Assembly (NCBI GenBank): GCA_017508825.1
Contig: JAFWRC010000128.1
Coordinates: forward strand, 1 to 40,110
DNA length: 40,110 bases
Direction: 5' to 3'
Source of the DNA: Lachnospiraceae bacterium
GTDB taxonomy: Bacteria > Bacillota > Clostridia > Lachnospirales > Lachnospiraceae
The notes under the pieces are model-generated. The model was not told the DNA's origin, did no database searches, and saw only the letters and a program-made list of their open reading frames with translations. Shown here one piece after another: positions 23,661 through 39,835 of this stretch. The translations under genes and the position numbers were made by a program. The number at the start of each line of letters is the position of its first letter. Position 1 is the stretch's first letter.

Positions 23661-24629
23661 ATGAATGAATATGATGTAATGCAGCAGAAGTTACTGGCCT
23701 GTGAATTTGAGATCGGACGTGAGATCATCGGTCAGCGTGATGTGATCCGAAGCGTGATGCTGGCCATCCTGTCCGGCGGCAATGTTCTTCTCGAAGGTAT
23801 GCCGGGACTCGGTAAAACACGACTGGTCAACACGATCAGCCATGTGCTGAACCTTTCCTTTAAGCGTATCCAGTTTACGCCGGACCTGATGCCGGGTGAC
23901 ATCACCGGTACCAACATCATGGAGAGAAGCGAAAGCGGTTCGGCATTCCGTTTTGAAGCAGGCCCGATCTTTGCAAACATCATTCTGGCAGACGAGATCA
24001 ACCGTGCGACGCCGAAAACGCAGTCTGCGCTGCTCGAGGCCATGCAGGAACATATCGTAACCGTCGGTAATGTGAGCCACAAAGTACCGGAACCGTTCTT
24101 TGTACTGGCTACCCAGAACCCGATCGAGACCGAAGGTACCTATCCGCTTCCGGAAGCACAGCTGGACCGTTTTATGTTCAAGATCATGGTTCCTTTCCCG
24201 ACCAAGGAAGAACTGGCGGGCATCGTGGGCTTGACGGAATCCGTGCAGCAGGGCGCAGCACAGACGGTACTGAACGGAGATGAGCTGCAGCAGGCGATCC
24301 AGATGGCAAAAGAGATCAAGATCGCCGATGCGGTCATGGATTATATTCTGGACATCATGATGGCCACTCACGGCGGCAACAAGTATGTACGTGAAGGCGC
24401 CAGCCCCCGTGCGGCACAGGCGATCATCCGCGGTGCCAAGGCAAGAGCCTTTATGGAGGGACGTTACAATGTATCCTTCGAGGATGTGGATACGGTAGTG
24501 CCTGCAGTACTGCGTCACCGTCTGATCCTTTCCTTTGATGCGGTATCGGATGGCGTGAATGAAGATATGGTAGTAGCAGAGATTATCAAGAACGTGAAAG
24601 CACAGATGGTGGCACAGAATCATGTTTGA
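23661..24629 (+). CDS. MoxR family AAA+ ATPase
   Basis: 322 residues, cytosolic. Walker A EGMPGLGKT (45-53), Walker B IILADEINRA with D111/E112, then TPKTQSALLEAMQE and the sensor-1 region ATQNPIETEGTYPLPEAQLDRF. These are signatures of the MoxR/AAA_3 group. MoxR ATPases act as chaperone-like remodelers of VWA-domain partner proteins or of complexes they carry. Here the partners are next door: DUF58 and the giant VWA protein. GAGGGGAG lies 12 bases before the ATG. It overlaps the DUF58 gene by 8 bases. Confidence 0.95.
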   Translation: MNEYDVMQQKLLACEFEIGREIIGQRDVIRSVMLAILSGGNVLLEGMPGLGKTRLVNTISHVLNLSFKRIQFTPDLMPGDITGTNIMERSESGSAFRFEAGPIFANIILADEINRATPKTQSALLEAMQEHIVTVGNVSHKVPEPFFVLATQNPIETEGTYPLPEAQLDRFMFKIMVPFPTKEELAGIVGLTESVQQGAAQTVLNGDELQQAIQMAKEIKIADAVMDYILDIMMATHGGNKYVREGASPRAAQAIIRGAKARAFMEGRYNVSFEDVDTVVPAVLRHRLILSFDAVSDGVNEDMVVAEIIKNVKAQMVAQNHV

Positions 24630-25500
24630 TGCGGAGTATTACGGACGACTGGCCAGACTGAAACTGGCAGTGGACAAAAAGAGTAATGCGGCGCTTCTGG
24701 GCAGCCGGAAATCGGTACGTAAGGGCAGCAGCGCCGAGTTTTCCGATTTCAGGGAATATATGCCCGGCGATGATATCCGGTCCATCGACTGGAATGCCTA
24801 TGCGCGTCTGGATCGTCTGTATATCAAAGAATATATGGAAGAGAAGGAAAGCTGTGTGAGCATCTTTCTGGATCTGTCCAAGTCCATGGAATATGGCGAA
24901 AAGAAAAAGTCGGAGCTTTGTGAAGAACTGGCGGCGGCTTTGTCTTATATTGCGCTGATGAATATGGATCACGTGGTGCTGTATGACCTGGCGGATGTGA
25001 GCCGCAGGCACTCGGCTTCCGGCGGACGTGCCGGATACCGCGATATGACGGCGTGGCTGGAGCGGCTGGAACCCGGAGAGCCGGCAGATATCCTGCGCAG
25101 TGTGCAGAATGCCGGCCGTATGCAACCGGGGCTTTCGATCATTATGTCGGATTTTCTGAGTGAGGATTTCGTAGAGGATGATTCGAAGCTGGCACAGGTG
25201 ATCAAGTATCTGCAGTTCAAAAAGCAGAAAGTGGTGCTTTTGCACATCATGGCAGAAGAGGAGCTGGAGATCGACCTGTCCGGTACGTACTATCTGATCG
25301 ATTCGGAAAATACGGATTCGAAGCTGCGGGTGACGATGGATGCGGAAGCCGTGAACAGCTATATGGAAAAACTGGAAGAGTTTACGGGAAGTCTGAAACG
25401 CTGCGCAAAGAAACTGAATGCTTCCTATCATCTGTGCAGTACGAAGGATCGATTTGATAAGATCGTATTCGAAGAACTGCGTGATATTTATGAGTTTTAG
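24622..25500 (+). CDS. DUF58 (VWA-like) protein
   Basis: 292 residues without membrane segments. The DUF58 hallmark REYMPGDDIRSIDWNAYAR is at 44-62. A VWA-like MIDAS D-x-S-x-S follows directly at D84-S86-S88 (FLDLSKSM). DUF58 proteins accompany MoxR ATPases in a very widespread gene pair and are thought to be its substrate-adapter or client. Overlap with moxR (ATG inside the last codons) indicates coupled translation. The next gene begins 19 bases after the stop. Confidence 0.93.
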   Translation: MFDAEYYGRLARLKLAVDKKSNAALLGSRKSVRKGSSAEFSDFREYMPGDDIRSIDWNAYARLDRLYIKEYMEEKESCVSIFLDLSKSMEYGEKKKSELCEELAAALSYIALMNMDHVVLYDLADVSRRHSASGGRAGYRDMTAWLERLEPGEPADILRSVQNAGRMQPGLSIIMSDFLSEDFVEDDSKLAQVIKYLQFKKQKVVLLHIMAEEELEIDLSGTYYLIDSENTDSKLRVTMDAEAVNSYMEKLEEFTGSLKRCAKKLNASYHLCSTKDRFDKIVFEELRDIYEF

Positions 25501-25519
25501 AGAAATAGGGTAAAGGATC

Positions 25520-28500
25520 ATGTCATTTACAAGTCTTTGGCCGCTGGCATTTTTGGCGGCAATACCGATCATCATCATATTGTATATCTTAAAGCCCAGG
25601 GGAAAGGATCTGGAGATCTCTTCCAACATCCTGTGGCAGCATCTGTTCAAAAACCGTCAGTCCAAGACGTTTTTTGAGAAGTTTCTGCATGAGATACTGA
25701 TGTATCTGCAGATCGTGATCATGTGTCTTCTGATCCTGTCGCTGATGGCGCCTTTTGTGATGATGCGTTCCAGAACGGGAGCCAGCACGGTACTGATCAT
25801 TGATACATCACTTTCGATGCAGCATAAGAATCCGGACGGCAAGACCAGACTGGAAGAGGCGAAGGAAGAGGCATTGGCGTTTGTCGGTTCTGCCAGCGGT
25901 GAAGTCAGTCTGATCACCGTAGGCAGCGAAGCTAGGATCCTGCTGACCAATTCCACAGACCGTAACCGTATGCGGGATGCCATTAACAGTATCGAAGGTA
26001 CCGATCAGGAAGGCAGCGTGGCGGAAGCCTATCATCTGGCGTCCACGATGGAATGTGATACTGCGACGATCCTGACGGACGGTGAGGGCGTAAAGATCGC
26101 TTCGGAATTTGCGGAGAATATCCACGCGGAAGTGATCGATGTCGGTGAAGCCGTAAATAACGTATCACTGGACTATCTGGCATATTCGGAGACCAATCAT
26201 GATGTGGCGGCCCGCTTCACTAATTACAGTGACGGCAAGGCTTTTCTGGATATCACGCTGTATGATGCGGCCGGAAATATCCTGGCAGACCAGGAGACAT
26301 CCGTGGAGGCAGGCAAGAGCGGATCCGTGCTGTTTTCGGATATCCGCACGGAAGACAGCTATCTGCACGCGGAGCTCTCGGCGATCCGTTTTGAGACAGA
26401 TACCAACAGCAAGGACAGCCTTGCCATCGATAACAGTGCATTTGCCCTGACACAGCGTGCCGGGGAGACGAAGGGTATCCTGATCAGTCAGGGCAATACC
26501 TTTGTGGAACGCGCGTATTATGCGGTGACCGGCGAAGACCTGACCAAGACGCTGTCGGATGGCGCATTATCTGCCGGAAGCTATAATGTCGTGATCTACG
26601 ACGCAGGATATGAACCGGTCGGCGCCAAGGGCGGCCGTGATGAGAGGGAAGGCAATACCTCCACTACGCTTGATCAGATGCGCTTTGTAAATAGTGGCGG
26701 AACGGAAACCCTTTCCCATGTGGTGGTCAAAGTACACAGTTCCGAAGTAACCCCGGGACTGGGAGATTTTACATTGGGCGCCAATACGGTGCAGGTGTTT
26801 GATCTGCCGGAATGGGCCACTTCGTTTATGGAAGTGGATGGCAAATGTGTCGGCTACTATGGTATTAACGGCGATCACAAGGAAGTTGTGGTCGGCCTGG
26901 ATGTGCGTGAGACGGACTTTGCGGTAAAGGCAGAATTCCCGGTCTTTATGGCAGGTTCCTTATCCTATCTGGCAAACCGGAGCCTTTTGGCACAGGATCT
27001 GTATCAGGTGGGAGATGCTCTTGTATTTAATCCTTCGGCTGAAGTGGCTGCGGATGAGATTCTTTTTTATCCGGTTCCGGAGGATGGTGAAGGCATGCCG
27101 TCCGTGATGGCGGATACCACCAAAGCAGGTCTGTACCGGATCACAGGTGGCGATAAAACGGAATATCTGATCCTGCGTGCGGCATCGGCCGGACATGACG
27201 GACGGATCGTAGCGGAGGATATCAAGGGCAGCGGCACAATGAATGCCGTACGCGCAAGGCGCGGGATGCGTAATTTCCTGCTGATCCTGGCCTTTATCCT
27301 GTTGATCGTTGAGTGGATCCTGTATGTACGCAAGATGAACTATAAGAAGAAGTTTTATCTGATCCTGCGTACCGTGCTTCTGGCGCTGCTGATCCTTTCG
27401 CTTCTGGGACTGCGGCTGCCGAAACCGACCAAAAATGTGACAACGGTATTTCTGGTCGATATGTCAGTCAGCGATGAGGAAAATATCAAAGAATTTGATG
27501 ATTTCATCGATGAGCAGCTGGCGCATATGCCGAAGAATAACCGCTATGCGATCGTAACTTTCGGACGCAGCGCGACGGTGGATCAGTTTGTTACGGATCG
27601 TGATATGTATATGGGACTGCGTGCAAAAACGGATGCAACGGCGACGAACTATGAGATGGCACTGCAGCGCGCGGCATCCATGCTCCCTGCAGACGGTGCC
27701 GGACGTATCCTGGTGCTTACCGACGGACGTGAGACGGCCGGTAATATCGATAATGCGGCTTCGGTCTTCCTGTCAGATGACATCGCGCTGGAATCAATCC
27801 TGATCCCTGCAGTCAGCGGTGACGACTGCTATGTCAAGGCCGTGGATATGCCGGAGACACTGCATTCCGGTGAAAGCTATTATATGACGGTTTCCGTGGA
27901 AAGCAATTACGAAACGAATGCGGAGATCGTGCTGACCAGCGGCGGAAGGGAAGTAGCGCGTGAGGCGGTACGTCTGCAGCGCGGCAGCAATGAATTTGTC
28001 TTTGAAGAAACGGTATCGGCGGATGAGGTGGAGACCTATGAGGTGCACGTAGAGGCGCCGGGCGATACCTGTGCGGAGAATAATGCGTTCAGTGCGTATG
28101 CGGAGGTCGAAGATGCTCCGAAGGTTCTGATCCTCAAGGGTAAGAATGAAGGCGGAAACGCCTTTGAAAATGTACTGGATGCCGCCCATGTCAATTATGA
28201 GTTTTTAAGACCCGGCAAGGCCCCGACTACGCTGCACGATCTGCTGCAGTATAAGGCAGTTATTCTGGAAAACGTTTATAAAGATGAATTACCGCAGGGT
28301 TTTCTGGATAATCTGGAGACGTATGTCAAAGATTACGGCGGCGGTTTCTGCGCCTGCGGCGGTGAAGATTCCTTTATGCTGGGTGGTTATAACGACAGCC
28401 CGATCGAGACGGTGCTCCCGGTCAATATGGAACTTCGCGGAACGCTGGAGATCCCGTCGACCGCGATCGTTATGGTCATCGACCATTCCGGCTCTATGAC

Positions 28501-30001
28501 AACCTATGCCGGAAACGGCGCAACTTATCTGGACGTGGCAGTAGAAGCGGCGAAGCGAGGTGTACAGAGCCTGCGTCCGGAAGACCTGGTAGGTATCCTG
28601 GCATTTGATGACCGTTATACCTGGGCGCATCATATCTCGAATGCATCGGATAAGAAACGGATCGAGAGTGATATCAACAGTATCACGGACGGTGGCGGCA
28701 CGGAGATCAAGCCAGCGCTGGAAGAGGCGAGAAAGGAACTTGGCGGATGCACTGCGGAGGTCAAGCATATCATCCTTCTGACCGACGGTATGGGTGAAAC
28801 CTATGATTTTTCGGATGTGACAGATAAGATCAACCGTGACGGCATTACGCTCTCTACGGTTGCAGTCGGCGCGTACTCCGATACGATGCTGATGCAGCAG
28901 CTGGCCAATGACTGTGGCGGACGTTATTACTTTGCCGACGTGGATACGGATATCCCGAGGATCTTTGCGCAGGAAGTGTATATGGGCGGAGATACCTATA
29001 TCAAGAACGGTGAGTATAATGTGTTCCCGCGCATCAGCCACGAGATCACCAACGGGCTCTTTACGGAAGGCTGGTACAATGTACACGGGTATATTGCAGC
29101 ATCCCCCAAAACCGGAGCTTCGGAACTGCTGGTGAGCGGTCTGGACGATCCGATCCTGACGGTATGGCAGTACGGTCTGGGTAAGACGGCGGCATGGAAC
29201 ACGGATGTAGACGGCGGATGGACGGCAGCATACTCCGGCGAAGAAAACTACGCGGAACTGTGGAAGCGTATCATCGACTTTATTGCGGGCACACCCAATA
29301 TCGGTGAGGATTATCTGGAGGTGGACAGCAAGGACGGACGTACGGTATTGACCTATCATACGGACGAATATAATGATACGACCGGCATTGACGGTATCTT
29401 TACGGCGCCCGGCGGAAATACCGGAAATGTGGAGTTTACGACTGCGGAACCGGGAGTATTTACCGCAGAGATCGACAGCTTAGAGACCGGTCTCTATAAC
29501 ATCAGCGTGCGCCGTAATGATAACAATGAAGTGACCGGCGCCTTTACGACGGCAACCGTGGTACAGTACAGTGATGAGTACCGTTTTGATGTAACGGAGG
29601 TGAAGTATCGCTCCTTTATCGATAAGTACGGCTCCTGGATCGATCTGGATACCAATGTATGGCGTCCGATCCAGAGCAACCGCAGCGGCAGCTTTGATCT
29701 GACCAATATCTTCCTGATCATTGCGATCCTGCTGTTTTTGATGGATATCGCGGGAAGGCGCTTCGGCTACGATCCGGTATTCCGGAAGAAGAAAAAGAAG
29801 GTAAAAGCCGGCACGGTTGAGCAGAGTGCGGATCTGACACCGCAGGAGACGACAGTGGCGCAGGAGGCTGAACCGGTACCGCAGGCAGCAGCAAAAACCT
29901 CGACGAAGAAGGCAAAGCCGAAGAAGGAGTCGAATGACGATGATCCCGCCGGACTGGATACCTCGGCTCTGCTGAAAAAGAAACAGGACAGGAATATGTA
30001 A
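25520..30001 (+). CDS. Giant membrane protein with three VWA domains (BatA-like N-terminus)
   Basis: 1493 residues. The N-terminus matches the BatA/aerotolerance type: helix (about 6-24), LKPRGKDLEIS loop, helix (58-82), then VWA domain 1 with MIDAS DTSLSM (D95). After a beta-rich region come two helices (about 583-602 and 613-632) separated by YVRKMNYKKK. VWA 2 follows with DMSVS (D647), then an amidotransferase-like stretch (about 865-965; VLILKGKNEGG, YVKDYGGGFCACGGEDSF), and VWA 3 with DHSGSM (D988). A last helix lies at about 1394-1412, followed by a Lys-rich cytoplasmic tail. Positive charges consistently place all VWA domains outside. It looks like a fusion of a BatA-like protein with a second membrane VWA protein. 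Probable client of MoxR in envelope function; the actual role is unknown. Confidence 0.85.
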   Translation: MSFTSLWPLAFLAAIPIIIILYILKPRGKDLEISSNILWQHLFKNRQSKTFFEKFLHEILMYLQIVIMCLLILSLMAPFVMMRSRTGASTVLIIDTSLSMQHKNPDGKTRLEEAKEEALAFVGSASGEVSLITVGSEARILLTNSTDRNRMRDAINSIEGTDQEGSVAEAYHLASTMECDTATILTDGEGVKIASEFAENIHAEVIDVGEAVNNVSLDYLAYSETNHDVAARFTNYSDGKAFLDITLYDAAGNILADQETSVEAGKSGSVLFSDIRTEDSYLHAELSAIRFETDTNSKDSLAIDNSAFALTQRAGETKGILISQGNTFVERAYYAVTGEDLTKTLSDGALSAGSYNVVIYDAGYEPVGAKGGRDEREGNTSTTLDQMRFVNSGGTETLSHVVVKVHSSEVTPGLGDFTLGANTVQVFDLPEWATSFMEVDGKCVGYYGINGDHKEVVVGLDVRETDFAVKAEFPVFMAGSLSYLANRSLLAQDLYQVGDALVFNPSAEVAADEILFYPVPEDGEGMPSVMADTTKAGLYRITGGDKTEYLILRAASAGHDGRIVAEDIKGSGTMNAVRARRGMRNFLLILAFILLIVEWILYVRKMNYKKKFYLILRTVLLALLILSLLGLRLPKPTKNVTTVFLVDMSVSDEENIKEFDDFIDEQLAHMPKNNRYAIVTFGRSATVDQFVTDRDMYMGLRAKTDATATNYEMALQRAASMLPADGAGRILVLTDGRETAGNIDNAASVFLSDDIALESILIPAVSGDDCYVKAVDMPETLHSGESYYMTVSVESNYETNAEIVLTSGGREVAREAVRLQRGSNEFVFEETVSADEVETYEVHVEAPGDTCAENNAFSAYAEVEDAPKVLILKGKNEGGNAFENVLDAAHVNYEFLRPGKAPTTLHDLLQYKAVILENVYKDELPQGFLDNLETYVKDYGGGFCACGGEDSFMLGGYNDSPIETVLPVNMELRGTLEIPSTAIVMVIDHSGSMTTYAGNGATYLDVAVEAAKRGVQSLRPEDLVGILAFDDRYTWAHHISNASDKKRIESDINSITDGGGTEIKPALEEARKELGGCTAEVKHIILLTDGMGETYDFSDVTDKINRDGITLSTVAVGAYSDTMLMQQLANDCGGRYYFADVDTDIPRIFAQEVYMGGDTYIKNGEYNVFPRISHEITNGLFTEGWYNVHGYIAASPKTGASELLVSGLDDPILTVWQYGLGKTAAWNTDVDGGWTAAYSGEENYAELWKRIIDFIAGTPNIGEDYLEVDSKDGRTVLTYHTDEYNDTTGIDGIFTAPGGNTGNVEFTTAEPGVFTAEIDSLETGLYNISVRRNDNNEVTGAFTTATVVQYSDEYRFDVTEVKYRSFIDKYGSWIDLDTNVWRPIQSNRSGSFDLTNIFLIIAILLFLMDIAGRRFGYDPVFRKKKKKVKAGTVEQSADLTPQETTVAQEAEPVPQAAAKTSTKKAKPKKESNDDDPAGLDTSALLKKKQDRNM

Positions 30002-32422: not shown

Positions 32423-33102
32423 TGAAAAAAGCGGTGATCTTTGATATGTTTGAGACGCTGGTAACTCTATTTGAAGGCAAGACCTATTTCGGGGAAAATA
32501 TCGCTGCCGATACCGGCGCGGATCCGGTACAGTTCCGGAAAGAATGGAATGCGATCGAAAAGGATCGGAGCATCGGAACCTATACGATTGAGGAAGGACT
32601 GACGATCGTCTTTAAAAAGCTGGGGATGTATACGGAAGAGAAAGTAAAGCTTGCAGCATCCAAAAGGATTGCAGCTCTGGATGATACCTTTTCGAATATC
32701 CCGGCGGAATCCATTCAGTTACTGAAGGCTTTAAAGGCGGAAGGGATCAGGATCGGACTCATCACCAATACCTTTAATGATGAACGGGACAAGATCCGGG
32801 AGTGTCCGTTATTTCCGTTCTTTGATGTGGCATTGATCTCCTACGAGCAGGGGCTCTGCAAGCCCGATGAAGAGCTGTTCCGGCGTATGACGGATGCCCT
32901 GCAGGTGTCCCCGGAAGAATGCCTGTATGTGGGCGACGGCGGATCCAGAGAACTCTATGCAGCACGCGACTACGGAATGCAGGCAGTGCAGTGTACCTGG
33001 TTCCATGACCGGGCTTTCGAACCGCACATCCCATGCCCGCTTCTTGCGGAATTCCCGCATGCAGACCATCCGATGGAGATCGTGGAATATGCCCGTGCGT
33101 AA
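32422..33102 (+). CDS. HAD superfamily hydrolase
   Basis: 226 residues, HAD subfamily IA. Motif I is FDMFETLV: D9 is the nucleophile but the usual second Asp is Phe, as in haloacid-dehalogenase-like members (D-x-F/Y-x-T-L). Motif II LITNT, motif III Lys in GLCKPDEELF and motif IV VGDGGSREL are all present; a helical cap lies at about 15-90. The substrate cannot be assigned: phosphatase, nucleotidase or dehalogenase-like activity are possible. GGGGAGG (about 32409-32416) precedes ATG 32422, which overlaps the Nudix stop. Confidence 0.88.
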   Translation: MKKAVIFDMFETLVTLFEGKTYFGENIAADTGADPVQFRKEWNAIEKDRSIGTYTIEEGLTIVFKKLGMYTEEKVKLAASKRIAALDDTFSNIPAESIQLLKALKAEGIRIGLITNTFNDERDKIRECPLFPFFDVALISYEQGLCKPDEELFRRMTDALQVSPEECLYVGDGGSRELYAARDYGMQAVQCTWFHDRAFEPHIPCPLLAEFPHADHPMEIVEYARA

Positions 33103-33117
33103 GGAATGAAATATGTC

Positions 33118-33146
33118 TGTACAATTTCAGAATAATATGATAAAAT
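33118..33146 (+). promoter_or_regulatory. Promoter of the TIR/SPFH operon
   Basis: TGTACA (33118-33123), 17 bases, TAAAAT (33141-33146). The -10 box matches 5 of 6 and the -35 box 4 of 6. The predicted start near 33153 gives a ~98-base leader that contains a terminator-like hairpin. Confidence 0.5.
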
Positions 33147-33181
33147 CAACCGTGGTTTGACAACGGGCGATGACAAGCAGA

Positions 33182-33212
33182 AAAACACATCCGAAGAACA
33201 GATGTGTTTTTT
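33182..33212 (+). terminator. Terminator-like hairpin in the leader of the TIR gene
   Basis: AAAACACATC (33182-33191) and GATGTGTTTT (33201-33210) pair over 10 bp around a 9-base loop, and the T-run extends to 33212. It is placed 80 bases after the HAD stop, but also downstream of the predicted promoter of the next operon. It could therefore end the rqcH-Nudix-HAD transcript or attenuate the TIR operon. Confidence 0.75.
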
Positions 33213-33250
33213 GATGTTTGCGAACACGGAATGAGGAGAGGAAGTAAGAC

Positions 33251-36142
33251 GTGGAAGAACTGATCTGTAAAAACTGTGGTGGTACATTGGAGTTTAAAGA
33301 AGGGGATAAGGTCGCGGTCTGTGACAGCTGTGGCAAAAAGATCACACTCCCCCGCTTTCAGAGTGATGTAAAAAAGAATCTGTTTAAACGGGCCAGCCGC
33401 CTGTTGCAGGAGAAACAGTTTGATAAAGCTATGGAGTTTTATGAAGATGCACTGAAGGAAGACGCCGAGGATCCGGAGGTGTACTGGTCTCTGGTGCTGT
33501 GCCGTTATGGGGTGGAGTATGTGGAGGAAGCTTCGGGGAAGCGTGTCCCCACGATCCATCGGATCCAGGAGACCCCGGTACTGGTGGATGAATCCTATAA
33601 GAGCGCATTGGAATATGCAGATGAAGAACAGAAGGAGATCTACGAAGCGGAAGCGGAAGAGATCGAGCGCATTCAGAGTGCCTACTTAAAGATCGTACGC
33701 AGTGAAAAGCCTTTCGATGTGTTCATCTGCTATAAAGAGACAGATGAGAACGGAAAGAGAACGCAGGATTCCGTACTGGCGAGGGAGATCTATGACCGCC
33801 TGTCCAATCAGGGGATCAAGGTGTTCTATGCTCCGGTTACCCTGGAAGATAAACTTGGAGAGGATTATGAACCGTATATCTTTGCTGCCCTGCAGTCTTC
33901 CAAAGTCATGATCGCTCTCGGCACTAAGAAAGAGTACTTTGAAGCGGTCTGGGTACGCAATGAATGGAGTCGTTTCCTGTCGATCCTGAACCGGGAAAAG
34001 AAGGAAAAAGGAAGCACGAACCGCACACTGATCCCGGCATATAAAGATATGGATGCTTATGATCTGCCGACGGAATTTGCACGTCTGCAGGCGATGGATA
34101 TGGGGAAATTGGGCTTTATCCAGGACCTGTCGGATGGTATCAACAAGATTCTTCGGGCCGGAAATAAGGAAACGAAGGCACAGGCTTCCACAGCTGCGCC
34201 GGCGGCTTCCAATGAGATCCTGAATCTGGAAAAGAGAATGTTCAATTTCCTGCAGGATGGGGATCGAAAAAAAGCGGAGGAATATGCAGAGCGTATCCTG
34301 GACAAAGATCCGGATAACGGCAAGGCATATCTGGGACATCTTCTGGTGGAAGCCGGATGCAGAAATGTGAATGATCTGAAAATGAGCCCGAAACTGCTGC
34401 CGGAATACAGATACTTTACCAATGCAATGGAAAAGGGGGATGCGCAGCAGAAAGAAATGCTCATGGCTATGACGCAGGCCGTAACACAGCGCATCGACCA
34501 GGAGCGGCAGGATGCAAAATATGTGGAAGGTATGCGGAAGCTGCAGAAAGCGATCCATACAAAGGATGAGCAGGCGGCAGTCAATGCGATGCATGCCTTT
34601 AAGCAGATCCCGGACTGGAGAGATGCCAAGGCAAAAGCAAAAGAGAGTGAAGAGCTTGCCAATGAGATCCGTGCGGAAAAGAAGAAGGCAGCGGATGAAC
34701 AGGCGGAAAAAGAACGGAAAAGACGCCGCAGAAAGCTGATCACCAAGCTGGTGATCGCGGCATCGATCATCCTGTTCATCTGGTTTATGTTGTACGGAAG
34801 GCGGGATATATCACTCAGCAAAGCAAAGAAAATGATCCGAAACGAGCAGTATGAAGAGGCCTACGATATTTTGAGAAGATTGGGAGAGTATAAAGGAGCC
34901 TCCTCTTTGATCGTTTCCAATATCTGTGAGCGGGCAAATGCGCAGATCGATGCCGGAAATACGGATGCTGCAAAGGATCTTCTTATGCCTTATCTGGAAT
35001 CTCCGGATGCGCAGGAAGTAATGCGTCGTGTGAATTATGAATACGGAAAGGCGGCTTTGGCAAGGAATGATTATGATGCCGCGTATTCGTATCTGGCTGC
35101 AAGCAGTTCTTATGAAGATGCGGATACTCTGATCGCAGAGAGTAAGTATACCCGTGCGGAAGAGGCGTTTGCTTCGGAGAATTTAGATGAGGTATTTGAT
35201 CTTCTGAATGGTCTGGAAACGTATAAAGAGGCGCCGGCTATGTTGCAGGCGGCACACTATAAAGCCGGGATAAATGCATTATCGGAAGAAAACTACGGAT
35301 CGGCATTGATCCATTTTCATAAGGCCGGAGATTATGAAGACAGTCTGGCGCAAAGGGATGAATTGTTAGAGGGAACACTGGCACTGGGAATTTATCTTCC
35401 GGCTTATAAAGTTCTGCTGGAAACCGATCCGGAACGGGCGGAGGAGTTGTTAAGTGAGCAACCCTGGCTTGGGATCATGTATGCTTCTATCGGAAGTACG
35501 GTTGAACTGGGTTCCTTTGAACAGGATAATGATAAGGATAACGGAGCCGAGCCGATAGAATGGATGGTAATGGATTATCGGGATGGAAAATATCTGCTGG
35601 TATCCCGATACAATCTGGATTCCAGAGCGTTTGATGAAGAGAAAGAGGCGGAAGGACTGACCTGGGAGAACAGTGATATCCGGGAGTGGTTGAACGGCGA
35701 ATTCATGAATGTGGCATTTACCGATGGAATCCGTAGACAGATTTCGGAAACAGTGAACAGTAATCCGGATATGTCGATTGAAGCAATGGTGGAGGAATTT
35801 TCGGTTCCCGGCGGATTGGAGTATATTGAAGATTATCAGGGATATGAGAACGGTGAGGATACGACTGACAGAGTATTTCTGCTGAGCTATCCGGAATATG
35901 TGAGATATGGTCTGGTCGACAGCCAGCCGGAGGATACGAGTTATGCAAGAGATCGGGTGAACAAAGCCGGTGGTGACGGCGCCTGTGTCTGGACCAGAAC
36001 GATCGCAAATCAGGATTCTCCGATCTTTCAGATCGGGGATGGCAGGGTCTATTGGGGATACGGTATGGGACTTACCAGTGCATGGCACAGTTATAATGCG
36101 AAAGGCATCCGTCCCGCACTTTGGTTTAGTGTAGAGGATTGA
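33251..36142 (+). CDS. Zinc-ribbon/TPR/TIR/transmembrane/DUF6273-like receptor-type protein
   Basis: 963 residues. A zinc ribbon (C6, C9, C24, C27) and a TPR-like helical region (about 38-75) precede a TIR domain (about 154-290) starting FDVFICYKETDENG. E238 in VWVRNEW matches the position of the catalytic Glu of TIR NADases by family comparison. TPR-like helices follow, then KERKRRRRKL and one transmembrane helix (about 496-516). Beyond it come helical repeats with Y-x-D-A/S motifs and a C-terminal DUF6273-like domain (about 763-960; WMVMDYRDGKYLLVSRYNLD, WENSDIREWLN, VFLLS). There is no signal peptide, and the strong positive charge before the helix predicts TIR inside and DUF6273 outside. 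GTG start with GAGGAGAGG upstream. Probable sensor with a signalling or NAD-consuming effector domain; ligand and activity are unproven. Confidence 0.85.
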   Translation: MEELICKNCGGTLEFKEGDKVAVCDSCGKKITLPRFQSDVKKNLFKRASRLLQEKQFDKAMEFYEDALKEDAEDPEVYWSLVLCRYGVEYVEEASGKRVPTIHRIQETPVLVDESYKSALEYADEEQKEIYEAEAEEIERIQSAYLKIVRSEKPFDVFICYKETDENGKRTQDSVLAREIYDRLSNQGIKVFYAPVTLEDKLGEDYEPYIFAALQSSKVMIALGTKKEYFEAVWVRNEWSRFLSILNREKKEKGSTNRTLIPAYKDMDAYDLPTEFARLQAMDMGKLGFIQDLSDGINKILRAGNKETKAQASTAAPAASNEILNLEKRMFNFLQDGDRKKAEEYAERILDKDPDNGKAYLGHLLVEAGCRNVNDLKMSPKLLPEYRYFTNAMEKGDAQQKEMLMAMTQAVTQRIDQERQDAKYVEGMRKLQKAIHTKDEQAAVNAMHAFKQIPDWRDAKAKAKESEELANEIRAEKKKAADEQAEKERKRRRRKLITKLVIAASIILFIWFMLYGRRDISLSKAKKMIRNEQYEEAYDILRRLGEYKGASSLIVSNICERANAQIDAGNTDAAKDLLMPYLESPDAQEVMRRVNYEYGKAALARNDYDAAYSYLAASSSYEDADTLIAESKYTRAEEAFASENLDEVFDLLNGLETYKEAPAMLQAAHYKAGINALSEENYGSALIHFHKAGDYEDSLAQRDELLEGTLALGIYLPAYKVLLETDPERAEELLSEQPWLGIMYASIGSTVELGSFEQDNDKDNGAEPIEWMVMDYRDGKYLLVSRYNLDSRAFDEEKEAEGLTWENSDIREWLNGEFMNVAFTDGIRRQISETVNSNPDMSIEAMVEEFSVPGGLEYIEDYQGYENGEDTTDRVFLLSYPEYVRYGLVDSQPEDTSYARDRVNKAGGDGACVWTRTIANQDSPIFQIGDGRVYWGYGMGLTSAWHSYNAKGIRPALWFSVED

Positions 36143-36168
36143 TGTAACAGATCAGGGAGAGATGATCC

Positions 36169-36981
36169 ATGGCTAAAGTATGTTCGTTTTGCGGAAAAAA
36201 GGCAACACTGGGATTGAGCTATCATGCTTTTCGGGGCGGAGGGTACTGTTGCAATAACTGCTGTGCAGGAGTTCATGTGCTTTTTAAGCAGCTGTCACAA
36301 TGGAGTGTAGATGAGTTTCAGGATTATCTGGCCTATCGGAATGCGTATGAACAGCAATTTGTCAGTATCTTTAAACCATTAATCAATTATGGCGCCATGC
36401 TGGTAGATCCGGAACACGGTTTGTTTGCACTTTTGGACAGATGGAGCTATGAGCTGCTTCCCAATCCGTATAGTCAGCAGATCTTTGAGATTTCTGCGGT
36501 GAAATCCTACAGTATCACAAATAAAGTGGATGAAGAATGGGTAGAGGGCGTATTCGGATCTACATTAAGGAGTTATTATACCATCTATATCAATATTGAA
36601 ATGGCCAGACCCAGGATCGCATATAATGGTTTCCAGCTGATCTACCGTGCACAGGAACATGAACTGCCGTCCCTTAAACTCATTGAACAACAGTTTGCAA
36701 GCTGGAATCCGAATCTGTTGAGTTCAGATCCGCTGGATCAGCAGAGAATACTGCAGGAAAGACAACAACAGGCATTGCAGCAGGAAATGGCAGTGCGGAC
36801 GGCGAGAGACTACCGGATGTTTCTGGGAATTCCGGAAAATGAGCAGTTGACGCCTGCATTATTGCAGAACTATAAGAACCGTAAGATCAGTGCCCTGCTG
36901 AATACCACAAACGATTTTTCGGCGATGGACCGGGTAGAAGCAGCGGCGGGATTTCTGATGAATTATTATCATCTGTCATAA
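36169..36981 (+). CDS. Cys-rich zinc-finger protein (DUF4428-like N-terminus)
   Basis: 270 residues, unknown function, no membrane segment. The N-terminus carries Cys pairs C5/C8 (CSFCGKK), and C27, C28, C31, C32 (YCCNNCC), consistent with a small zinc-binding domain like the DUF4428 finger. The middle (about 60-170) is mixed alpha/beta. A Gln-rich helix (about 200-225; QQRILQERQQQALQQEM) leads to a C-terminal helical region ending MNYYHLS. GGGAGAG precedes the ATG, 26 bases after the TIR gene. Probably a cytosolic partner of the TIR and SPFH proteins, since all three carry zinc-binding N- or C-terminal modules. Confidence 0.75.
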   Translation: MAKVCSFCGKKATLGLSYHAFRGGGYCCNNCCAGVHVLFKQLSQWSVDEFQDYLAYRNAYEQQFVSIFKPLINYGAMLVDPEHGLFALLDRWSYELLPNPYSQQIFEISAVKSYSITNKVDEEWVEGVFGSTLRSYYTIYINIEMARPRIAYNGFQLIYRAQEHELPSLKLIEQQFASWNPNLLSSDPLDQQRILQERQQQALQQEMAVRTARDYRMFLGIPENEQLTPALLQNYKNRKISALLNTTNDFSAMDRVEAAAGFLMNYYHLS

Positions 36982-37011
36982 AGCATACATTTGGAAAGGA
37001 TGGTACAAAAA

Positions 37012-38361
37012 ATGAGAATTGTAGATGTCGTTCATTATCAGGGCACACCGGATTACCTGATCTGGAAGTTTCCGGAGGAAAACTTTAACACGCAATCAAG
37101 ACTGCAGGTTCCGTTAGGACAGGAGGCGATCTTTTTCAGCAACGGACAGGCAATGGATGTGTTCGGGCCGGGTGAGTATACGCTGACGACCGACCGGATC
37201 CCTCTGCTGGCGGATTTTATCAAGAAACATATCTCCGGTGGCGTGGATATGTACCAGAGCCAGGTATATTACATCAATAAGGCCGAGGCTCTGTCCATGA
37301 AGTGGGGAACCCCGGATAAGGTCATGATCCAGCCGAACGGCGTACCGATGAAGCTGGGCGCAGGCGGAGATATGTCACTTCAGGTTACGGACTCCGCGGT
37401 GTTTTTGCTGAAACTGGGCGCAAATAACCTGGATAAGGAACATTTTGTTGCGCAGATGCGGGAAAAACTGAATACCAAGATCGGTGACTATCTTGCCAAT
37501 ACGGTAGCGGATCTGAATGTGGATATTTTTGATCTGGATAAGCACCGGATGGAGTTTTCCGCAAAACTTCAGGAAATGCTGGCAGCGGATTTTGAAATCT
37601 ACGGCGTATCGCTGCTGCAGTTCAATGTTTCCAGATTTGTACTACCGGAGGATGATCCGAACTATCAGAATATGCTCAAGAACCGCGCAGACAAGGTGAA
37701 TGCCCTGGATGCGAAGAAGATTGAGAATGACCGTAAGATGGTGGAGCTGGAAGGCGCGAAAGATCGTATGGAGATCGAAAATGAAATGAAGCGCCGGTCT
37801 ACCGAAGCAGATGCCGATGCGATGGAAACATGGGAACTTCGAAAGGCGGAGATCGCAGCAAAGAGACAGATCATGGAAGCAGAGGCGATGAAGGCGAAGC
37901 GAGAGCTGGAAGGCTATACCTATCAGGAGGAGCAGAGTTATAACATTGCCAAGACCTTTGCAGATAAGCAGGGTGGCAGCGATATGGTAGGTCTGGGAGT
38001 AGGCCTGGGCGCTATGACCGGCATCGGTGCCAGTGTAGGTTCCTATCTGAGCGGCAGTGTAACGCAGGCGATGGCCGGAACTGCTGCACCGCAGATGAAA
38101 CCGCAGTCTGATGGAAAAGTGAAGTGCAGCAAGTGCGGCGCAGAATTGCCGGAAAATGCAAAGTTCTGTCTGGAATGCGGTGAAAAGGTAGTCGTCCTGC
38201 AGGAGAACGAGATGATCTGTCCTTCCTGTGGTAAGGCTACTCCGAAGGGCAAGTTCTGTATGGAATGTGGCGCACCTTTGGCAAAGAAATGTCCGAACTG
38301 CGGACAGGAAGTACCGAGTGGCGGCAAATTTTGTCTGGAATGCGGAACGAAGATGGAGTAA
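37012..38361 (+). CDS. SPFH domain protein with three C-terminal zinc ribbons (YdjI-like)
   Basis: 449 residues. The N-terminal SPFH-type domain (about 20-240) lacks a signal or membrane helix and begins with IWKFPEENFNTQSRLQVPLGQEAIFF, as in the B. subtilis YdjI / 'virion core protein-like' family. A long charged helix (about 225-310) precedes a Gly-rich hydrophobic stretch (MVGLGVGLGAMTGIGASVG). Then come three zinc ribbons of the form CxxCG-(9-11)-FCxECG: first at C372/C375/C386/C389, two more to the end. Start ATG 37012 is preceded by GGAAAGGA; a TTG at 36991 is in frame but lies before that site. YdjI homologues sit in membrane-stress operons with PspA-like proteins; here the partner is a TIR protein. 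Likely a membrane scaffold. Confidence 0.9.
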   Translation: MRIVDVVHYQGTPDYLIWKFPEENFNTQSRLQVPLGQEAIFFSNGQAMDVFGPGEYTLTTDRIPLLADFIKKHISGGVDMYQSQVYYINKAEALSMKWGTPDKVMIQPNGVPMKLGAGGDMSLQVTDSAVFLLKLGANNLDKEHFVAQMREKLNTKIGDYLANTVADLNVDIFDLDKHRMEFSAKLQEMLAADFEIYGVSLLQFNVSRFVLPEDDPNYQNMLKNRADKVNALDAKKIENDRKMVELEGAKDRMEIENEMKRRSTEADADAMETWELRKAEIAAKRQIMEAEAMKAKRELEGYTYQEEQSYNIAKTFADKQGGSDMVGLGVGLGAMTGIGASVGSYLSGSVTQAMAGTAAPQMKPQSDGKVKCSKCGAELPENAKFCLECGEKVVVLQENEMICPSCGKATPKGKFCMECGAPLAKKCPNCGQEVPSGGKFCLECGTKME

Positions 38362-38368
38362 GCAGAAT

Positions 38369-38938
38369 ATGAAAAAAATTGGATTGAAATGTCTGGTGCT
38401 TTTCTCAGCCCTGTTCTTATTCGGCTGCGGAAAGGGGGAGACTACACGGGAAGATGGACAGTCCCAAAGCGAGTACGAAAAAGAACGAGCGGAGGCATTT
38501 AATAATCTCCGCGGCAATTGGAGCCTCACCAAAGTCTATGATACCGAAAGCGGGGAGATGGTTGACTGGCTCCGGACACAGGATAAGATCGCATCTACCG
38601 GTCAGGATCTGGTTTCGGATTCCTTGGGAAACATAGGAGAAGGGATCTCTAATCTGGTAGATAAGACCGGCGTATTCCATCAGGAGACCGGGATCACGGT
38701 AACTTCGGAAGAGATCAACCTGGAAGAACTGGGCCGTGGAAACTATAAGGTAGAAGAATTTGACTTCCGGATCGAAAACGAAGAAACGAATGCATATTAC
38801 TTCGTTATTTCTGATTCGCAGAATAACGGTTTCGAAGTGGTCTATTACCCTGCCGATAACAGTATGGTCATCGAAAATCTGGTTAGCGGTGAAGCAGACC
38901 CGGAAAGCATTAAACTGTTTGAAAGAGCAGTACAATAA
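38369..38938 (+). CDS. Small lipoprotein, last gene of the TIR/SPFH operon
   Basis: 189 residues. Lipoprotein signal peptide with lipobox LFGC (C20). The mature part begins with a charged Glu/Lys/Gln segment, then RGNWSLTKVYDTESGEMVDW, a lipocalin-like or DUF-type 'amount of product left after treatment' pattern seen in many small clostridial lipoproteins, ending in a beta-rich C-terminus. No family was recognised with confidence. The start ATG is 7 bases after the SPFH stop. The stop codon overlaps the left edge of the terminator hairpin at 38937-38978. It would face outside, like the predicted sensor domain of the TIR protein. Confidence 0.8.
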   Translation: MKKIGLKCLVLFSALFLFGCGKGETTREDGQSQSEYEKERAEAFNNLRGNWSLTKVYDTESGEMVDWLRTQDKIASTGQDLVSDSLGNIGEGISNLVDKTGVFHQETGITVTSEEINLEELGRGNYKVEEFDFRIENEETNAYYFVISDSQNNGFEVVYYPADNSMVIENLVSGEADPESIKLFERAVQ

Positions 38939-38978
38939 TAAGAATAACGGCAGGCGTTTGCCTGCCGTTATTCTTATT
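38937..38978. terminator. Perfect 19-bp bidirectional terminator
   Basis: Arms 38937-38955 and 38960-38978 are exact inverted copies with a GTTT loop; the outer part is A/T-rich (AATAAGAATAA / TTATTCTTATT) and the inner part G/C-rich (CGGCAGGC / GCCTGCCG). Symmetry lets it act on both strands, between the convergent lipoprotein and pgeF genes. Confidence 0.9.
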
Positions 38979-39052
38979 GCGCGTCTGATGTAAGGGAATA
39001 TGCCGCTGTCGCAGCTGCGTCAGGCGTAAGTGTTCAGCAAGCGGAATACTTT

Positions 39053-39835
39053 TTAGCATTCGGGAATCATGATCACAGCGGCCTGGCTGCCGCGGTTCCC
39101 ATTGGTATAGCGGTGCGACCAGTATCTCTCCGGAAGACACATGGTGCAATCTTCGATCACTTCTACGTGATCTTCCGAAATGCCTGTTCTCAGCAGGCAT
39201 TTTTTTAATACCCCTTTCAGATCGAGCATGTATTTACCGTTTTCTTTTAGTATATAAAGGTCGCACTCATCCGTGCATAATAATGTATTTACAGCTTCGA
39301 TCACTTCCGAGCCAACCTCAAAACAGCACTTTCCGATGGCAGGCCCGATACAGGCACGGATCTGCTCTTTTTCGGCGCCGCATTCCAGCATCTTTTCAAC
39401 GGCGACTTTTTCGATATCGGCAACGGTACTGCGCCAGCCGGAGTGAACGGCTGCAACCACCCGGTTCTTTTCATCCGCCAGCAGGAGCGGAATACAGTCA
39501 GCGGTAAAGACGACCAGTGGTACTCCGGGAGTGGAGGTAACATAACCATCCGCCTCATAGAGCGTTCCATATCCGTACGCCGGTCTTGCATTGTCCGCAT
39601 CAACGATCATTACGTTGTTGCCATGTACCTGTTTGCCGCAGACAAACGGAATCTTCTTAATACCACAGGAGTCAAAAAAAAGCCGGTAATTCTCCTTCAC
39701 ATTTTCCGCATCATCCCCGCGGCTCATCCCCAGATTCAGCGACGCAAATATGCCCTCACTTACGCCACCGGTCCTTGTTGAGAATCCATGCGGGAAAGTG
39801 ATCAGATGTGATTTTATCGTGTTGATCTCACTCAT
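39053..39835 (-). CDS. pgeF: Peptidoglycan editing factor PgeF (multicopper-oxidase-like 'laccase' family)
   Basis: 260 residues from the ATG at 39835. PgeF (YfiH/YlmD/LACC1 family) removes wrong amino acids such as L-Ser from the UDP-MurNAc precursor and has purine nucleoside hydrolase/phosphorylase-like activities. The His-Cys-His metal site is visible: GKQVHGNN, FTADCIPLLL and VHSGWRS, with CIGPAIGKCCFEVG nearby. The N-terminus has the typical HGFSTRTGGVSEG. AAAGG lies 11 bases before the second ATG; the longer start at 39853 (six more residues) is also possible. It is convergent with the TIR operon and has a strong promoter at 39870-39898. Confidence 0.92.
   Translation of the reverse strand: MSEINTIKSHLITFPHGFSTRTGGVSEGIFASLNLGMSRGDDAENVKENYRLFFDSCGIKKIPFVCGKQVHGNNVMIVDADNARPAYGYGTLYEADGYVTSTPGVPLVVFTADCIPLLLADEKNRVVAAVHSGWRSTVADIEKVAVEKMLECGAEKEQIRACIGPAIGKCCFEVGSEVIEAVNTLLCTDECDLYILKENGKYMLDLKGVLKKCLLRTGISEDHVEVIEDCTMCLPERYWSHRYTNGNRGSQAAVIMIPEC

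Follow-up and report, generated by a model that had tools for sequence, protein, structure and literature searches.

A TIR-SPFH operon of a Lachnospiraceae bacterium that looks like a bacterial counterpart of animal Toll-like receptors

The operon and its TIR protein

The window analyzed in this work, that is, the whole stretch of 40,110 nucleotides of contig JAFWRC010000128.1 (assembly GCA_017508825.1) from a Lachnospiraceae bacterium, includes a four-gene operon that encodes a protein with a TIR domain, a 270-aa zinc-finger protein, an SPFH protein and a lipoprotein (Table 1). The original prediction, made from this DNA alone, had proposed these genes as a candidate sensing or defence system. 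The four genes are confirmed as same-strand open reading frames (ORFs) in the region 33118..38978, with intergenic gaps of 26, 30 and 7 nt, and the zinc-binding Cys clusters that had been read in three of the products are also confirmed: a zinc ribbon at the start of the TIR protein, CxxC pairs in the 270-aa protein, and three zinc ribbons in the C-terminus of the SPFH protein. In the latter, Pfam recognizes Band_7_1 (1e-30) plus several zinc ribbons, so that an SPFH protein of the Band_7 type with zinc ribbons, as in the phage shock protein (PSP) and Ydj operons, is present in the window.

Table 1. Features of the operon and its surroundings (positions in the window)
Feature	Position	Strand	Basis
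Upstream block kept in the relative G117, with promoter-like TGTACA-17-TAAAAT (33118-33146)	33105..33146	+	
Leader hairpin followed by a T-run, terminator- or attenuator-like	33181..33211	+	Sequence and fold
TIR receptor (putative), 963 aa, GTG start	33251..36142	+	ORF list, Pfam
Codon of Glu238, putative NADase catalytic Glu	33962..33964	+	Conservation, alignment
Predicted membrane helix, about aa 497-518	34739..34804	+	Family-wide charge bias: N-terminal side inside
DUF6273 domain, predicted outside	35582..36124	+	Pfam
270-aa zinc-finger protein, distantly DUF4428-like	36169..36981	+	
SPFH/Band_7_1 protein with three C-terminal zinc ribbons; best start ATG 37012	37012..38361	+	Pfam
Lipoprotein, LFGC lipobox (by reading), without family match	38369..38938	+	
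Inverted repeat, 20 pairs, terminator-like on both strands	38936..38979	.	Fold

The TIR protein is composed, from its N-terminus, of a zinc ribbon, TPR, TIR, a Lys/Arg-rich stretch, one hydrophobic helix, TPR-like repeats and DUF6273; Pfam identifies TIR_2 at aa 157-286 (2e-11) and DUF6273 at aa 778-958 (5e-15), along with TPR. The original prediction had overlooked that the Lys/Arg cluster is followed by a membrane helix and, farther on, by the DUF6273 domain. The zinc ribbon occupies aa 6-27 (C6/C9/C24/C27), and among the TIR relatives that include these columns C6, C24 and C27 are kept in 155/155 and C9 in 154/155. A single helix after the TIR half is predicted in 89 of 138 distinct uncut TIR proteins, and in the 81 single-helix proteins that extend 100 residues or more past the helix the charge of the inner flank averages +4.7 and that of the outer flank +0.8, the inner flank being more positive in 74, equal in 6 and less positive in 1. 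The parts that follow the helix are of several kinds; the 69 that were scanned include DUF6273 (43), RCC1 (8), LRR_5 (3) and many TPR, and one of them gave a weak C-type lectin match slightly below the Pfam cut-off. In genome G104 the lipoprotein adjoining the TIR gene has a DUF6273-like part, which fits an outside location of this domain. The constant half, formed by the zinc ribbon, TPR and TIR, is predicted to be cytoplasmic and the variable half to lie outside; this is, by prediction, the layout of a Toll-like receptor (TLR), with an outer sensor, a single membrane helix and an inner TIR. DUF6273 is modelled as a C-type-lectin-like fold in the available part of PMC10743442, and the same source together with the accessible part of PMC11792537 places it in hypermutated phage proteins, an occurrence that does not indicate the ligand of the copy found here. 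Searches against solved structures with DUF6273, the SPFH protein and the small membrane protein described below gave no useful match.

The TIR domain also carries the conserved Glu expected of a NADase TIR. Glu238 is kept in 152/152 rows that have the column, out of 209 distinct rows including fragments, and aligns with the E of CWCQYEL in the TLR15/TLR2 TIR (E=2e-4); we take this position to be that of the catalytic Glu of SARM1. The TLR15/TLR2 TIR is the sole solved match of a TIR-only profile, and with a longer profile the plant TIRs RUN1 and AT1G72930 rank above it.

Linkage of the TIR and SPFH genes in Clostridia

The TIR half has at least 542 confirmed relatives in the genome collection, of which the best 80, corresponding to 79 distinct loci, were kept. 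An SPFH gene is present in 53 of these loci, never more than 2.7 kb from the TIR gene and in every case on its strand. A small membrane protein, here called the partner, occurs in 48; the partners form one family, and three examples gave no Pfam match above the curated threshold. Most of the 26 loci that lack SPFH (22) are under 20 kb long. Because close matches are over-represented in this set, a sample of 391 genomes spread evenly over the class was also used, with cut-offs of E to 1e-40 for TIR and to 1e-60 for a strong SPFH; TIR was found in 21, strong SPFH in 38, and the two together in 18 (Fisher p=8e-18, rising to 7e-17 when the own genome is excluded). SPFH and the partner adjoin TIR in 16 of the 20 class genomes with TIR other than the own one, the partner match being weak (37-38 bits) in three of the 16 (G236, G142, G420), and the four outside this pattern are G237 (a 3.3-kb contig), G235, G410 and G504. 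Within the genus, TIR occurs in 14 of 35 genomes, and the nine genomes with an SPFH above 300 bits all have TIR, adjacent in eight and at contig ends in G111 (p=3e-5). The SPFH and TIR distances are correlated (r=0.49, 74 pairs; none of 2000 permutations as high, the highest 0.26), with host relatedness uncontrolled. The repeats L081, L101, L118, L246 and L247 were left out of the distance, neighbour, nested-ORF and lipoprotein-neighbour analyses, as was L112, without need; L112 was kept in the Glu238, topology and tandem-copy analyses. The distance, neighbour and nested-ORF analyses also omit the sets without this TIR (L172, L173, L188), and some repeat loci may remain, given that the two genome collections overlap. 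We conclude that the link between TIR and SPFH is conserved far above chance, and that the conserved clostridial unit is the SPFH protein, usually the small membrane protein, and one or more receptors with zinc ribbon, TPR and TIR.

The view of the four genes as one conserved system did not hold. Of 100 family genomes, only the own one gave the 270-aa protein, and among 35 genus genomes two gave a close relative and one more a weak match (2e-5). Across the 150 loci that were fetched, its relatives are the G117 copy and a protein of G119 named DUF4428 by Pfam (28% over 127 aa), and the lipoprotein has a relative in G117 only, so that neither has a close relative outside G117. Neither protein has a Pfam match, and with the limits applied the 270-aa protein also has none in NCBIfam or PADLOC. 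A lipoprotein as the usual neighbour of the module was rejected (13/298 near genes, 45/1125 others, p=0.74). Both proteins are probably lineage-specific accessories of the window operon. That the genes are chance neighbours with no joint function agrees with the occurrence of the full four-gene set in two genomes only, yet it is close to negligible as an account of the whole in view of the SPFH-TIR linkage across many genera and the correlated divergence; the linkage data refute it for the TIR-SPFH pair, while it may still apply to the 270-aa protein and the lipoprotein.

The SPFH protein is also found in other company. In 18 fetched stretches where SPFH has none of this TIR family adjacent, another zinc-ribbon protein adjoins it in 11 (by reading), and several of the remaining stretches stop at contig ends. 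A second, diverged SPFH-partner pair lies on another contig of the own genome (C19; L172:8561-13141), where the next genes encode a zinc-ribbon protein of 270 aa and a two-helix protein of 551 aa, and similar sets occur in G112, G132 and G313. In L310, L311 and L312 SPFH and the partner are followed by a three-helix zinc-ribbon protein, with no TIR of this family; this protein is a possible alternative client. In G111 (L187:1583-2464) the soluble tail of the partner is fused to an N-terminal TIR domain.

In Bacillus subtilis the SPFH protein YdjI acts with two membrane proteins, YdjG and YdjH, to bring PspA to the membrane, according to the abstract of PMC8581546. This precedent, together with the SPFH genes that lack this TIR, suggests that SPFH and its partner may be a general platform of which the TIR receptor is one client. 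The ydj operon (PspA-YdjG-YdjH-YdjI) shares with the module an SPFH protein with integral membrane partners (PMC8581546, same part) and a Band_7 protein with zinc ribbons (PMC11237479, in the portion available), and differs in that here the client is a TIR receptor and no PspA is detected; the 'Tir' in that portion of PMC11237479 is the CesT/Tir chaperone and was discarded as a TIR domain. PspA (PF04012) was not found in the own genome (0/1; 89.7% complete), and it was found in 9 of 14 control genomes. The identity of the operon as a PSP operon was ruled out on this ground, and of the YdjI-type membrane-stress kinship claimed in the original prediction the part that concerns the SPFH chassis stands (PMC8581546, as above).

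An envelope-stress or membrane-repair module would follow if SPFH and the partner were a general chassis whose clients are PspA in B. subtilis and TIR receptors or other zinc-ribbon proteins here, the TIR serving as a scaffold and the envelope being adjusted instead of the cell being killed. The recruitment of PspA by YdjI with YdjG/H, the zinc-ribbon proteins beside SPFH in 11 of 18 stretches and in the own genome, and flanks of housekeeping type agree with it. We consider it unlikely, given that Glu238 is invariant, that the outer parts vary strongly, that ORFs of NAD-using, RNase-like and reverse transcriptase type are nested in the modules (see below), and that PspA was not detected in the genome.

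Variation, transfer and genomic context

Neighbouring TIR copies at the same locus (47 pairs in 21 loci) share a median identity of 65% in the inner half and 33% in the rest, and the inner half is the closer part in 46 of the 47; in extreme tandem examples the values for the inner half and the rest are 91% and 33%, and 85% and 22%. A similar patchwork appears between the window and G117. The synonymous divergence (dS) of three flanking genes is 0.62, 0.89 and 0.63, whereas that of the 270-aa gene is 0.04, that of the lipoprotein gene 0.07, and those of two inner segments of the TIR gene 0.01 and 0.06; the TIR domain (0.32), SPFH (0.25) and DUF6273 (0.20) are intermediate, and an outer TPR segment reaches 1.42. 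The block common to both genomes begins at 33105, and the HAD gene upstream of it is absent at that place in G117. These values read as a recent transfer of parts of the operon between two species, with mosaic exchange. Positive selection on the outer part was rejected, for the ratio of nonsynonymous to synonymous divergence (dN/dS) of the outer part is below 1, which fits recombination better. Diversification by a diversity-generating retroelement (DGR) in the window was likewise ruled out by the absence of a template/variable repeat pair in 33000-39300 (repeats of at least 40 nt). The conflict sensors linked to DGRs in the available part of PMC10907252 resemble the module in having lectin-fold sensors, some of them joined to TIR, and differ from it in that no such repeat pair is found here and the variation looks like segment exchange. 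In an empty-site comparison that covered 10 of 27 loci, pgeF lies in other surroundings in the relatives examined.

Forty-three same-strand ORFs are nested inside the modules, a few of which may not be genes because a simple longest-ORF caller was used. Among the 25 of 30 Pfam families listed for them are SIR2_2 and DUF4365 (two each) and TIR, RES, FRG, HEPN_RiboL-PSP, RVT and ParE (one each); other nested ORFs are metabolic (short-chain dehydrogenase, two), regulatory or unnamed. PADLOC finds in this set RT_UG26, a ThsB-type TIR and candidate families. In locus L259 (937-14456) a RES ORF and a UG26-type reverse transcriptase ORF are interspersed among three TIR genes and one TIR fragment, and the nested FRG match, seen as a tally only, probably belongs to it as well. 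The nested ORFs look richer in defence-type matches than the flanks, a comparison that has no formal control.

One copy of the module lies on a contig of a viral collection (L327:307-10463), where SPFH, the partner, a 153-aa ORF and the TIR receptor follow one another (504, 326 and 546 bits for SPFH, partner and receptor), preceded by a weakly tail-fibre-like gene, an endolysin and a DNA-invertase-type recombinase; relatives of this recombinase in the fetched loci amount to four matches at three distinct places. This copy beside phage lysis genes bears on the possibility of a contact or competitor sensor, in which a lectin-like outer domain would recognize bacteria, host glycans or antibacterial proteins and the TIR would respond, with no role against phage. 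Outer domains of surface-protein type, and the gut or rumen samples named in many record titles, speak for such a sensor; the position of L327 speaks against it, as does the presence of DUF6273 in phage proteins in the parts cited above of PMC10743442 and PMC11792537, which are silent on the ligand of this copy, and we hold it to be improbable.

A putative membrane immune receptor

We propose, at slightly better than even odds (about 0.55), that the window operon is one local form of a module widespread in Clostridia, with a membrane TIR receptor carried by an SPFH platform, most likely for defence; the module is likely a membrane immune receptor. The sensing part of the original prediction fits the receptor layout, and the signs of defence are indirect; they consist of the effector-like ORFs inside modules, the single copy that adjoins phage genes, the transfer and the variability of the outer parts, and not of defence islands. 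In the proposed mechanism an SPFH oligomer, usually with its small membrane partner, would carry one or more single-pass TIR receptors, whose outer domain would bind a ligand, for instance phage particles or pieces of the envelope. The receptors would then cluster on the SPFH lattice and their TIR domains self-associate, so that NAD+ could be cleaved by means of Glu238 and the cell would become dormant or die; alternatively, an ADP-ribose signal might reach helper effectors carried by some other loci. In the window the TIR is probably its own effector.

Several observations weigh against this proposal. Not all of the 138 TIR proteins have the single helix (in 23 none is predicted, in 26 several are), and the charge bias of the window protein itself is small (about +7 inside, +5 outside, by hand count). 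The TIR matches to solved structures are weak, and a Glu at the aligned place is also found in TLR TIRs that are not known to be NADases. The dN/dS of the outer part is below 1. The window operon lacks the usual membrane partner, and strong SPFH is missing in 5 of 14 genus and 3 of 21 class TIR genomes, so SPFH is not obligatory; the five genus genomes with TIR and no SPFH match have TIR proteins with several C-terminal helices. When all SPFH matches to 1e-10 are counted the genus association falls to p=0.012, on account of four genomes in which a weaker SPFH occurs in the absence of TIR. The enrichment in defence islands that the original prediction had suggested checking was not seen: 145 neighbours within 4 kb (of 631 candidates, some nested ORFs included) are mainly housekeeping among the 25 of 51 families listed, which include a handful of defence matches such as AbiEii, a tally with no formal control. 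Neither the 50,697 phage records nor the 72,556 plasmid records searched with one query sequence gave a match.

The likeness to animal TLRs concerns the predicted outer sensor, the one membrane helix and the inner TIR. The bacterial protein differs in the zinc ribbon and TPR ahead of its TIR, in a chain orientation with the N-terminus inside, in outer parts that are DUF6273, RCC1, LRR_5 or lectin-like, and in having SPFH as partner; the likeness is one of layout, and common descent is not claimed. With Thoeris (ThsA/ThsB) the module shares a TIR protein and a possible NAD-based output, and some loci nest SIR2-like ORFs. It differs from Thoeris in that the receptor is predicted to span the membrane and that SPFH and a membrane partner take the place of ThsA: as the original prediction had stated, no ThsA effector gene lies beside TIR in the list of window ORFs or in a PADLOC scan of the four proteins, and the window TIR protein matches TIR_2 and not ThsB_TIR (Pfam to E 0.05). 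PADLOC 2.0 gives no confident component match to anti-phage systems for the four window proteins, the sole match being PDC-S66 (2e-4) over aa 121-240.

No description of a TIR-SPFH module was recognized among the papers listed in searches of the open PubMed Central literature, a scope that leaves most subscription papers outside. The known bacterial TIR immune proteins, to our knowledge, sense inside the cell. If the proposal is true, this common family would represent a surface-receptor form of TIR immunity in bacteria, with the sensor outside, the TIR inside and a raft-like scaffold; it would offer a test case for what SPFH proteins scaffold, and its variable outer domains would provide a set of candidate ligand-binding domains from gut bacteria. 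The module is scattered through many gut bacteria and may serve as an alarm against phage or other attackers. A broader version, to which we give somewhat less than an even chance, is that gut Clostridia hold a large, horizontally moving repertoire of Toll-like receptors that span the membrane, with a constant TIR half wired to an SPFH lattice and an exchangeable outer half; these would detect phage or rivals at the cell surface, either ahead of entry or in its course, and respond through NAD+.

The single promoter and strong terminator of the original prediction were upheld in part. The promoter is weak, matching at 9 of 12 positions, and a scan of its region ranks it no higher than chance (10 sites, against 11.7 +/- 3.3 in shuffles); the block from 33105 onward is conserved in G117 despite this score. 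The hairpin at the end of the operon is real (-32 kcal/mol, identical sequence in G117), with no U-tract after it. The genes farther upstream, at 23661-30001, read from their sequence as a MoxR/DUF58/BatA-like operon, for which no connection with the module was seen. The leader hairpin, placed between the putative promoter and the TIR start, is identical in G117.
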